DNA of 10,945 nucleotides. It comes from an uncultured Bacilli bacterium. Lineage in GTDB: Bacteria > Bacillota_I > Bacilli_A > RF39 > UBA660. Positions 1,209 to 10,945 of the stretch are shown here, one piece after another; the stretch's first letter is position 1; every line of letters starts with the position of its first letter. Below the pieces are notes generated by a model, which saw only the letters and a list, made by a program, of their open reading frames with translations, was not told where the DNA came from and ran no database searches. The translations under genes and the position numbers were made by a program. The stretch is from assembly GCA_949746915.1 (NCBI GenBank), contig CATKEA010000155.1, forward strand, positions 1-10,945, in the 5' to 3' direction.

Positions 1209-2390
1209 ATGAAAGAAAAAATTTTAAAATGGTGTGAAAATAAAAGATTAATTGTATTGTTATCTATAATAGTAATAATATTATCTATATTCATTGCTAA
1301 AACTAGTCTAGCCTCATGGGAACTTAATTTAAAGCAGCCAGGAAATAATAAAATAACAATTAAAAGTAATGATGGTCTTTATGCTCATATTAAGTCACAA
1401 TCGCGTGGAAGTGATATTGATAACAATCTTAATTATAATGCCCTTACTAAAGATACTAATGAATCTGGGGTTTATTCAACAACTAAGACAAATAATAATT
1501 TAGAAGTCTATTTTTATCGTGGAAAAGTTGATAATAATAATATCTTGTTTGGTGGGTTTTGTTGGAAAATAGTAAGGACTACAGAAAGATATGGAGTAAA
1601 ACTTATATATAATGGAATTCCTAATAATGGCAATTGTAATGCTACAGGTAGTCAAACTACTATTGGAGAAAGTGTATGGAATGAAGTAGTTAATGATAAT
1701 GCCTATGTTGGCTATATGACAGGTAAAATAAATACATACAATTATTTAGAGGCTCAGGGAAATATAGGGGATTCAAAAATAAAAACAGTAATAGATAGTT
1801 GGTATGAAGAAAATCTTAAAGGGACTGAGGCAGAAGATTTAATTATTGATAGTGTTTATTGTAATGACAGAACAATGGAAAGTGATTGGTCGAATTATAG
1901 ATATAATGATTGGGTTAGCAAGAGTGATATCACTCAATATGGATTTGGGAGTACCTACAATACAATTTTTAAAGGCTCATCAAGAGTAGGAACAGCAGTT
2001 GGTGTAACTGAACCAACATTAGTATGTCAGCAAGATAATGATAAATTTACAACTAAGGCTAAATATGGAAACGGAAAGTTAACTTATCCAATTGCTTTGT
2101 TAACAGCAGATGAAGCAGTATTTGCTGGTTCAAAAGGGGGAATACTTGAGAATATGAATATGAGTAATCCTGATATGTATTTAGCAATTGGTGGTAGCCA
2201 AAATTTTTGGACCATGACTCCCCATCGTTATTACAAACAAGCTATTATTTATCTTGCTGTTAATAGTGTTGGACTTAATACAAATGAAGGAGCAACAGTT
2301 AAGGCTTTAGTTAGACCAGTAATAACTATAAATGGTAATGCTAAATTAAAAACAGGTGACGGAACATCTAGTAATCCATATCAAATATAA
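1209..2390 (+). CDS. Membrane-anchored extracellular protein, DUF6273-like, 393 aa
   Basis: A short cytoplasmic start (MKEKILKWCENKR) leads into one hydrophobic helix at about residues 14-31. The remaining roughly 360 residues are Asn- and Thr-rich, as expected outside the cell. The conserved-looking core begins with VYFYRGKV-like text (YFYRGKV, 101-107) and GGFCWKIVRTT (115-125). It continues with LTYPIALLTADEAVFAG (291-307) and FWTMTPHR (333-340), and closes with LVRPVITI and GDGTSSNPY. This arrangement resembles secreted DUF6273-like proteins common in gut Bacillota; I assign it from memory of the pattern, not a search. Cys118, 143, 218 and 273 could form disulfides. GAGG at 1197-1200 precedes the ATG. 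The role is unknown; adhesion or ligand binding is possible. Confidence 0.6.
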   Translation: MKEKILKWCENKRLIVLLSIIVIILSIFIAKTSLASWELNLKQPGNNKITIKSNDGLYAHIKSQSRGSDIDNNLNYNALTKDTNESGVYSTTKTNNNLEVYFYRGKVDNNNILFGGFCWKIVRTTERYGVKLIYNGIPNNGNCNATGSQTTIGESVWNEVVNDNAYVGYMTGKINTYNYLEAQGNIGDSKIKTVIDSWYEENLKGTEAEDLIIDSVYCNDRTMESDWSNYRYNDWVSKSDITQYGFGSTYNTIFKGSSRVGTAVGVTEPTLVCQQDNDKFTTKAKYGNGKLTYPIALLTADEAVFAGSKGGILENMNMSNPDMYLAIGGSQNFWTMTPHRYYKQAIIYLAVNSVGLNTNEGATVKALVRPVITINGNAKLKTGDGTSSNPYQI

Positions 2391-8169: not shown

Positions 8170-9459
8170 ATGAGTATAGTTGATGTCATAAATAAAAAAA
8201 GACTTGGTTTTGCATTAAATAATGAAGAATTAAAATATGCATTTAACAATTTCATGAAAGGGAACATTACTGACTATCAAATGTCAGCTCTTTTGATGGC
8301 TATTTGTATAAATGGTATGAATGATGAAGAAATATATTACTTAACAGATATTTTTATCAAGAGTGGAGATATTCTAGATTTAGAAAAAATAACAGGAATA
8401 ACTGTTGATAAACATTCAACTGGTGGTGTTGGAGATAAAACTACTTTAGTTATTGCATCAATCGTAGCAGCAAGTGGATTAAAAGTTCCTAAAATGAGTG
8501 GACGTGGCCTAGGTCATACAGGAGGAACAATAGATAAATTAGAAAGTATTCCTGGATTTAAAACAGAATTGACTAAGGAAGAATTTTTAAATCAAGTAGA
8601 AGAAGTTGGCTTTGCAATTACTTCTCAAACAGCTAATTTAGCACCACTAGATAAAAAAATCTATGCCCTAAGAGATGTAACAGGAACTGTTGAATCAATA
8701 CCATTAATTGCATCATCAATAATGAGTAAAAAGATTGCTAGTGGAGCTAAGAATATTGTAATAGATGTAAAAGTAGGTAAAGGAGCTCTATTAAAGAATA
8801 AAGAAGATGCTATAAGATTATCAGGAATAATGCGAAAAATCGGTGCAAGATACAAAAGAAATGTAGAAACCATGATAACTTATATGGATATTCCGCTTGG
8901 AACTTCTATTGGTAATGCTTTAGAAATAAAAGAAGTAATAAATATATTATGTGAAAAAGAAGAAAACTATCTTGTAGAATTATCAAAAGCACTGGCAAGT
9001 AAAATGATTGCAATGGGAAAAGGAATAAGCGTTCTTGAAGCTAGTAAAGAGGTAAATGAATTAATTCATAACAGAAGTGCTTACAATAAATTTTTAGAAA
9101 TGATAAAACGTCAAGGAGGAAATATTGATAAGTTAGAAGTAAGTACTAATATTCAAGAAATTCACTCTACTAAAAAAGGTCACATTATTGATATGGACGC
9201 TTATGAATTTGGAAAACTATCATTAGAACTTGGAGGAGGAAGAATAACTAAAGAAGATAAGATTGATCCAAGTGTTGGAATTGTTTTAAATAAAAAAATC
9301 GGTGATGATGTTGAAATTGGAGATGTCATTTGTACTCTATATCTAAAAAAAGGAGCTTCTTTTATAGACAGGGATATAACTACGTTTTATAAGTTTGAAA
9401 ATAGTAACACTAACTCTGATGTTAAAGTAATGGAAGAGTCAAAATCAGAAAAAAAATGA
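8170..9459 (+). CDS. pdp: Pyrimidine-nucleoside phosphorylase
   Basis: A cytoplasmic enzyme of nucleoside salvage, 429 residues, which splits uridine, deoxyuridine and thymidine with phosphate to the base and (deoxy)ribose-1-phosphate. Landmarks are KHSTGGVGDK (81-90, phosphate-binding), MSGRGLGHTGGTIDKLE (109-125, the family signature), and Arg168, Ser183 and Lys187 in the base-binding region. Their numbering equals that recalled for the Geobacillus enzyme. Lys108 before the signature matches dual-specific PyNP, where strict thymidine phosphorylases such as E. coli DeoA have Met; this favours broad pyrimidine specificity. The C-terminal alpha/beta domain is intact (GHIIDMDAYEFG, LELGGGR). 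The usual salvage partners (deoC, cdd, nupC) are not adjacent. The gene ends in TGA 13 bases before the pilin-like gene. Confidence 0.95.
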   Translation: MSIVDVINKKRLGFALNNEELKYAFNNFMKGNITDYQMSALLMAICINGMNDEEIYYLTDIFIKSGDILDLEKITGITVDKHSTGGVGDKTTLVIASIVAASGLKVPKMSGRGLGHTGGTIDKLESIPGFKTELTKEEFLNQVEEVGFAITSQTANLAPLDKKIYALRDVTGTVESIPLIASSIMSKKIASGAKNIVIDVKVGKGALLKNKEDAIRLSGIMRKIGARYKRNVETMITYMDIPLGTSIGNALEIKEVINILCEKEENYLVELSKALASKMIAMGKGISVLEASKEVNELIHNRSAYNKFLEMIKRQGGNIDKLEVSTNIQEIHSTKKGHIIDMDAYEFGKLSLELGGGRITKEDKIDPSVGIVLNKKIGDDVEIGDVICTLYLKKGASFIDRDITTFYKFENSNTNSDVKVMEESKSEKK

Positions 9460-9472
9460 AGGAAAAAGCTAT

Positions 9473-10945
9473 ATGAAAAAGAAGAAAGAAGGATTCACCT
9501 TAATAGAGTTACTAACAGTATTAGTGATAATAGGAATAGTATTAATGATAGCAATACCAAGTGTATCAAAATTAATGTATAATCAAAACGAAAAGAAATT
9601 AAAAGCATTGATAGATGCAGCCCTAAAAGCAAGTAATGTCTATATAGATGAATATAAAAGTGGATTTATAGAAAGCCATGATAAGTATAACTTTACATAT
9701 GAAACATTACTAGGAAAGAATTATGTCAAAGAAGAAGATATCAAATGTAGTGGAACAATCCAAGCAACAAGAAAGAAAGGAAATAACTACACATATAAAG
9801 CATATTTGATGTGTAAAGATAAAAATGGAAATGTAGTAAGTGATAATACAAATGAACTACCAGAAGGAGGAATAAGTATCCAAGGGAAGTTCATAATGGA
9901 TTATGAAATAAGATATAATGATAAAAATGGAAACAAATACGATAATAATTATACAAGAAATAATTTGTATAATGAGTTTATAGCATATGATTTAGAAAGA
10001 GTAGGACCAACAGCAGGAATAAGTAAATATAAATATTCGTATGATAATAAAAACTGGATAGAGTTAAGTGCAAATGAAGTAACAGGAATGGGAAGTTTTG
10101 TAATAAGTAGTAACTATGTAGGGAAAGTATATTTCAAAGCATATGATATGTATGGAAATGAAAGTGAGACAATAAGTTATAATATAAAAATAGATAAAAT
10201 ATCGCCAACAGGAACAATCACAATAGAAAGAAATGGAGGAAGTTATAATAGCTTAAGTGTAAAAGCGAACTTAAATGCCAAAGATAACCCAAATGGTTCA
10301 GGAGTAAAACAGATGTGTGTGCAAGAATCAAGTAATGTCAATTTGTGTAGTTGGGTAGGATATCAAACAAGTAAGAGCTTAACCCTAAGTGGAAGTTTAG
10401 ATGGAAGGCCAAGAAGAGTATATGCCTGGTTTAAAGATGGAGTAGGAAATATAGAACAAGCAAAATCAGGAAGTGGAGATGGAACAACAGGGGCAGACTA
10501 TACGCCATATAAAGAAGGAACAGAAATAGAGATGACAGGGTGGAGTATATGTAGTAAAGTATGTGGAGGAGGAACTCAGAGAAATATAGCAACAGATAAA
10601 TATACCAAAAAGGAAATACCAGAGAAAAGTGAAATTAGAGAATGTAATACAATGGATTGTTGTAGTAAAACAATAAGGACAGGAAATAGTAATTGGAGTA
10701 CATGTAGTAAAACATGTGGAGGAGGAACCCAAACAAGAGATGTATATTATAAAAGTTACTATAATGGACAAACGTGTCCAACAGCAGTAAAAGGAGAAAG
10801 TCAAAGTTGTAATACCCAATCATGTGATGTAACCCCACCAACATTTAGTATAGTAAAGGCAACAAGTTGGGTAACATCAGATAATATAAAAGTAACGATA
10901 AAAGACCAAGAAAGTGGAGTAGTAGCATATCAATGGACAACAACA
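9473..10945 (+). CDS. Type IV prepilin-like protein with Ig-like segments and two thrombospondin type-1 repeats (partial, no stop in window)
   Basis: An open frame of 491 codons continuing past the window. The leader MKKKKEG ends at a prepilin peptidase site, and FTLIE follows with Glu at mature position 5, then a hydrophobic helix to about residue 29. This is the standard type IV pilin or pseudopilin N-terminus, predicting export and assembly into, or anchoring by, a pilus-like machine. After a 30-180 region come Ig-like beta segments at about 185-242 and 246-330. Two thrombospondin type-1 repeats follow (355-397 and 406-451), each with WSxCSKxCGGGTQ. A third Ig-like segment starts near 455. 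Codon use is strongly skewed, with almost no T-ending codons in four-fold boxes. AAGGA (9459-9463) lies 9 bases before the ATG. Co-transcription with pdp is likely from the 13-base gap. An adhesive pilin-like surface protein is inferred. Confidence 0.85.
   Translation, partial: MKKKKEGFTLIELLTVLVIIGIVLMIAIPSVSKLMYNQNEKKLKALIDAALKASNVYIDEYKSGFIESHDKYNFTYETLLGKNYVKEEDIKCSGTIQATRKKGNNYTYKAYLMCKDKNGNVVSDNTNELPEGGISIQGKFIMDYEIRYNDKNGNKYDNNYTRNNLYNEFIAYDLERVGPTAGISKYKYSYDNKNWIELSANEVTGMGSFVISSNYVGKVYFKAYDMYGNESETISYNIKIDKISPTGTITIERNGGSYNSLSVKANLNAKDNPNGSGVKQMCVQESSNVNLCSWVGYQTSKSLTLSGSLDGRPRRVYAWFKDGVGNIEQAKSGSGDGTTGADYTPYKEGTEIEMTGWSICSKVCGGGTQRNIATDKYTKKEIPEKSEIRECNTMDCCSKTIRTGNSNWSTCSKTCGGGTQTRDVYYKSYYNGQTCPTAVKGESQSCNTQSCDVTPPTFSIVKATSWVTSDNIKVTIKDQESGVVAYQWTTT
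10541..10579 (+). repeat. Copy 1 of the thrombospondin-repeat core (39 bp)
   Basis: Encodes WSICSKVCGGGTQ at residues 357-369 of the pilin-like protein. It matches copy 2 at 10694-10732 in 34 of 39 bases by direct count. The similarity fades beyond this core, which suggests an old internal domain duplication, or strong constraint on the WSxCSxxCGGG motif with shared codon bias. Confidence 0.8.
10694..10732 (+). repeat. Copy 2 of the thrombospondin-repeat core (39 bp)
   Basis: Encodes WSTCSKTCGGGTQ at residues 408-420. It is the partner of the copy at 10541-10579. The five differences fall at copy positions 8, 19, 20, 36 and 39. Positions 19 and 20 form part of the Val-to-Thr change; the Ile-to-Thr change comes from position 8. 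Confidence 0.8.

Follow-up and report, generated by a model that had tools for sequence, protein, structure and literature searches.

Thrombospondin type-1 repeats on a modular prepilin of an uncultured Bacilli bacterium, with unrelated end modules on a common scaffold in related proteins

A type IV prepilin gene encoding thrombospondin type-1 repeats (TSRs) begins near the end of a 10,945-nucleotide stretch of DNA (hereafter the window, comprising the entire contig C155 of genome G000) from an uncultured Bacilli bacterium, a probable inhabitant of the animal gut; the source is a metagenome-assembled genome, 86.8% complete, whose 274 contigs total 1,420,423 bases. The full-length product, of 919 residues, is probably a modular minor pilin in which immunoglobulin (Ig)-like domains and TSRs serve as stalk and joint and the C-terminal module binds a ligand, built on a scaffold that is combined with unrelated ends in related proteins. 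In the mechanism that we infer, prepilin peptidase would cut off the leader and a PilB/PilC-type machine would place the pilin in a type IV filament via its N-terminal helix, with a stalk and joint, made up of Ig-like domains and two cysteine-rich TSRs, keeping the C-terminal module, its probable ligand-binding part, distant from the filament. In this lineage, several unrelated C-terminal modules share a common pilin–Ig–TSR scaffold, the join falling right behind the final TSR in every protein compared, such that strains or gene copies may bear different ends on one stalk.

The open reading frame (ORF) at positions 9473–10945 (+ strand) had been described in a first-pass annotation, made from the letters of the window, as a prepilin N-terminus fused to two TSRs among Ig-like segments; the coordinates hold, although the frame, of 491 residues, is still open where the contig ends and the gene is incomplete within the window. 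The remainder is supplied by contig C193 of the same genome, which opens with the final 99 bases of the window, and by protein P0101 (919 residues), equal to the window ORF at 491/491 residues and to the C193 ORF at 459/461; beyond the window, these add Ig-like domains and a C-terminal module of 184 residues. The unusual length noted in the annotation, and the minor-pilin role proposed there, are supported. Because the first of the two differences between P0101 and the C193 reading falls at residue 492, immediately past the window, the assembly break was probably caused by strain polymorphism. The contig break was also considered as the trace of a swapped tip in this gene, a reading rejected on the grounds that P0101 and C193 differ at two residues only. 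The features of the gene are as follows.

9473..10945, + strand: modular prepilin gene, 5′ 491 of 919 codons, the remainder on contig C193
9460..9463, + strand: AGGA, a candidate ribosome-binding site read from the sequence, within the 13-base gap between an upstream phosphorylase gene and the pilin gene
9473..9493, + strand: class III leader MKKKKEG (PF07963 and TIGR02532), cleavage being expected after Gly7
9494..9664, + strand: pilin helix at the N-terminus, bearing Glu at position 5 of the mature protein (PF07963; helix 10–64 in the model)
9665..9883, + strand: pilin head, residues about 65–137, from the secondary structure of the model (boundary approximate)
9884..10507, + strand: two Ig/FN3-like domains, residues 138–345
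10535..10660, + strand: TSR 1 (PF19028, 22.4 bits; model blocks with a predicted local distance difference test score of 78–92)
10688..10825, + strand: TSR 2 (PF00090, 36.6 bits; PF19028, 40 bits)
10826..10945, + strand: start of the next Ig-like segment, which goes on in C193

The N-terminus is matched over cut-off by N_methyl (Pfam accession: PF07963; residues 2–28, E 1.2e-7, 31.4 bits, cut-off 21.2) and by the NCBIfam prepilin cleavage/methylation model (TIGR02532), and has the class III leader ending in Gly, the Glu at mature position 5 and the hydrophobic helix of type IV prepilins (MKKKKEG followed by FTLIE). Both TSRs are borne out by profile matches over the Pfam cut-offs: TSP1_spondin (PF19028) in two stretches of the ORF (E 7.6e-13, 49 bits, cut-off 41; in six-frame scoring 40 bits, slightly below that cut-off) and TSP_1 (PF00090) at residues 406–451 (35.3 bits, cut-off 21.6). 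The best sequence match of P0101 among solved structures is thrombospondin-1 (3r6b; E 2e-5), over residues 353–461, which cover both repeats. The P0101 model places strands of repeat 1 at residues 352–357, 367–375 and 387–391, and is of low confidence past residue 450; the structure-search matches listed were to Ig-like and propeller folds and none to a TSR, a fold that was not searched on its own. Ig-like segments occur in the window ORF and again beyond the window in P0101 and C193, and 468 residues follow the TSRs in P0101, ending in a separate module.

Within the family sample, TSRs appear to be located almost only on pilins. PF19028 matches were found in 18/291 genomes of the window's family (14/150 genera), a single one of them over the 41-bit cut-off, and among 14 control genomes neither PF19028 nor PF00090 gave a match (0/14 each). 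The architecture recurs among relatives. The family set comprises 26 ORFs, and in three of them a contig edge truncates the start; among the 23 with a readable start (P0101 taking the place of the window ORF), PF07963 matches 22, PF19028 22 and PF00090 19 at E 0.01 or better. The sole ORF without a prepilin match (G166:C12) reads KGYIMTEA by eye and lies near a PilB-like gene. At class level, TSP_1 was found in 4/395 genomes (a sample that includes family members), all four from the window's family. A larger protein search returned 99 matches, 29 with both prepilin and TSR domains precomputed, and many TSR proteins with no listed prepilin domain, including animal proteins and one Bdellovibrionaceae protein. 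A first scan of genome contigs yielded no relative; a second yielded 79 loci, with TSRs by motif only in L059 (the gene on G001:C73, its start cut) and in a 101-residue chance frame.

The relation between scaffold and tip is clearest in a sister species (G001, to which public records CANORV010000073.1 and 88.1 of an uncultured Tenericutes bacterium belong). The TSR pilin on its contig C3 has 644 residues and shares its scaffold, over 445 residues, with P0004 (818 residues; 98.2% identity) and P0005 (724 residues; 97.8%), whose own pairwise identity is 99.6% over 452 residues; the tips of the three have no mutual BLAST match at E 1e-3. Three unrelated end modules are attached, in these proteins, directly behind the last TSR cysteine of near-identical pilin–Ig–TSR scaffolds, the P0004-type tip being modelled as a beta-propeller. 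Contig C72 of G001 opens within a final TSR and proceeds into the P0004 tip (98.7% identity over 437–666, a frame break, then 89.2% over 663–818), while C3 of this one genome has the other tip. A frame change interrupts the propeller tip on C72 (L202; 4382–5535, − strand), with assembly error, decay and phase variation as candidate causes. In the window's genome, the N-terminus of P0001 lies at the end of contig C119 and that of another such pilin at the end of C53, and C251 begins in a last TSR and continues into a P0100-like tip; C53 and C251 may be parts of one gene.

Among 15 proteins compared, one tip class is shared by P0003, P0004, P0009 and G001:C73, another by P0001, P0002, P0007 and P0016, and a third by G001:C48 and P0010, which are near-identical over their full length; the tip match starts 1–2 residues past the last TSR, regardless of whether the motif picks out one, two or four TSRs in the scaffold. 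Such discordance could arise in metagenome assembly if near-identical paralogue scaffolds were connected to tips of other genes: several of the genes concerned stop at contig edges, paralogues with near-identical start regions exist, and the contigs of P0004 and P0005 measure just 3211 and 2530 bases. We nevertheless consider an artefact improbable, as a wrong join still requires one scaffold sequence leading to two tips, as in C3 and C72 of G001, and identical tip classes reappear on clearly different scaffolds.

Locus L068 (569–9637, + strand) is a tandem of five large pilin genes with near-identical N-termini and different ends. The window itself encodes, at 1209–2390 (+ strand), a secreted protein of 393 residues with no Pfam or NCBIfam match, the C-terminal part of which recurs on large pilins (L068, L071, L079, L089 and L096) and on further secreted proteins encoded in the window's genome (L014, L017 and L021). 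At L014 (G000:C206, 3984–7689, − strand), a 722-residue Ig-like pilin is followed by a 133-residue membrane-anchored protein, a 181-residue ORF and a 138-residue relative of the 133-residue protein; the 181-residue ORF resembles the C-terminal part of the 722-residue pilin and has no pilin start, raising the question of whether it is an orphan tip with a partner gene.

Machinery of the kind needed for presentation on a pilus or pseudopilus, as the annotation had envisaged, is encoded in the same genome, where nine prepilin-motif matches, three T2SSE ATPases (T2SSE match at 404.6 bits) and one prepilin peptidase (Peptidase_A24, 50.5 bits) were found; peptidase and assembly ATPase are both present, as are PilB-like and PilC-like proteins. 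The C53 ATPase, encoded alongside minor pilins, has its best NCBIfam scores with GspE and PilB; C88 encodes a GspF/PilC-like protein adjoining the prepilin peptidase, and C47 three pilins of ordinary size together. All NCBIfam equivalog scores for this machinery (GspE/PilB, GspF/PilC, TadA, VirB11) lie under their cut-offs, the prepilin peptidase has no NCBIfam match at 1e-3, and the retraction ATPase PilT is the best score of none of the three ATPases in this incomplete genome. Beside its type IV pilus genes, this small genome has two ATPase loci that score best with TadA and VirB11 (L019 on C82 and L020 on C124). With an N-terminus scoring best, under cut-off, with ComGC among NCBIfam pilin families, an ATPase scoring best with GspE, and a gene outside any pilus operon, the protein might instead belong to a competence- or secretion-type pseudopilus, or be a stalked surface protein retained in the membrane, and be no pilus adhesin; the ordinary-sized pilins on C47, and the PilB-like ATPase and minor pilins on C53, make a pilus possible, and we give these alternatives little likelihood.

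The TSRs themselves are favoured as stalk or joint because of their position, their varying number and the fixed junction behind them. Animal and apicomplexan TSRs bind heparan sulphate or matrix proteins, and the annotation had proposed a host-glycan, heparin or matrix adhesin; direct binding by the TSRs would agree with the Trp of WSxC kept in both window units and with the differing TSR number among relatives. Among 41 units found by motif in 26 proteins, Trp stands three residues ahead of the first cysteine in 24, including both window units, and Arg within nine residues downstream of GxG in 31; the Trp and Arg motifs are partly kept to that extent, whereas the animal-type WxxW occurs in 3/41 and RxR in 9/41, and the window repeats have little net charge (7 basic and 6 acidic residues in one, 4 and 2 in the other). 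The TSRs lie mid-protein, with another 468 residues behind them, and the end module varies while the scaffold, TSRs included, stays constant; adhesive TSRs are on these grounds unlikely, and adhesion would more plausibly reside in the end module. Disulphides are to be expected in the TSRs because of their cysteine pattern.

The distribution of tips suggests that sticky pilus ends may be exchanged among relatives, presumably by recombination. A more far-reaching proposal, offered tentatively as somewhat short of probable, is that the TSR array acts as both a mechanical and a recombination joint: homologous recombination at repeated TSR DNA would swap entire C-terminal adhesin modules between pilin genes, and pilins would also trade modules with secreted surface proteins of other kinds, creating strain-level tip variation in uncultured, probably gut-dwelling Bacilli. 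Nucleotide identity between the paralogues on G001:C48 and C73 is highest around the TSRs, and C73 shows one clear, recent duplication of a repeat (99% DNA identity between units 2 and 4, against 72–76% for the other pairs in the gene). Gene conversion between these paralogues is not claimed, same-residue codons being identical at 36/39 positions near the TSRs and 79/103 elsewhere (p 0.053). Shufflon-type repeats were not recognised in four stretches, on contigs that end near the genes, the inverted-repeat arms listed (for L053, the 5 longest of 16 pairs) being at most 29 nt and 70–83% complementary.

Several points weigh against a modular pilin with exchanged tips. The tip of the window gene matched nothing other than itself among proteins of 505–1608 residues and across 291 family genomes (one match, its own genome), and reached only E 0.006 in a single comparison with the C3 tip; these results accordingly show no exchange of this particular tip. 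The short contigs of P0004 and P0005 lack flanks, and the mosaic signal between G001:C48 and C73 is not significant (p 0.053). The pilus tip cap has been described as lacking Glu5 (PMC10191384), and the conserved Glu5 here would fit poorly with a place at the very cap. No disulphide oxidant was found in G000 (VKOR in 0/6 genomes, Thioredoxin_4 in 1/6, not G000; DsbA-family proteins were not searched).

The pilin start at 9473 lies 13 bases downstream of a co-oriented gene for pyrimidine nucleoside phosphorylase, and no promoter-like site was found on the + strand over 9200–9700. Synteny in the sister species was sought and not shown, since what comes after the phosphorylase gene on G001:C33 is the beginning of a different gene for a secreted protein, and then the contig end. 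Directly 3′ of the pilin stop codon on C193, an inverted repeat (L052, 1392–1444), whose 25-nt arms are 80% complementary and enclose a loop of 3 nt, is possibly the terminator of the gene.

An animal-type adhesion domain would in this way be assigned a definite position within a subunit of a bacterial pilus. A simple rule is suggested, one stalk carrying different end modules at a fixed junction, through which Bacilli that have received little study could change the targets of their pili; strains within one species are predicted to vary chiefly in the module that follows the TSRs. The window TSRs resemble those of animals and apicomplexans in their PF19028 and PF00090 matches and in having thrombospondin-1 as closest solved relative, and differ from them in being prepilin-anchored and in the rarity of WxxW and RxR in the family units. 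The PilV shufflon of IncI plasmids joins a constant pilin part to alternative C-terminal segments, an arrangement alike in outline; unlike there, no shufflon-type repeats were recognised here in the four stretches, a recombinase not having been searched for.

'Thrombospondin' is absent from the main text of PMC8179133 and PMC10191384, Dataset S1 of the former may list TSR pilins, and mentions in PMC9210963 and PMC5817068 concern other subjects; a literature search limited to licensed open papers recognised no report of TSRs on pilins. PilC/PilY1 tip adhesins (PMC8179133) are likewise carriers with exchangeable modules and have a beta-propeller, predicted here for P0004-type tips only, but PilY1 is not a pilin, and the propeller here is an end module fused to one. 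Modular pilins are defined by an N-terminal prepilin motif joined to a domain that is not restricted to the biology of type IV pili (Raynaud et al. 2021), a definition that the window protein fits. The modular pilins PilB and PilC of Streptococcus sanguinis (PMC8179133; PMC9934059) share this build, their occurrence in a monoderm bacterium and a proposed role as tip-exposed adhesins, and differ from the far longer protein described here, with its chain of Ig-like domains and TSRs. What is new relative to known modular pilins is the Ig–TSR stalk with unrelated end modules behind one fixed junction.
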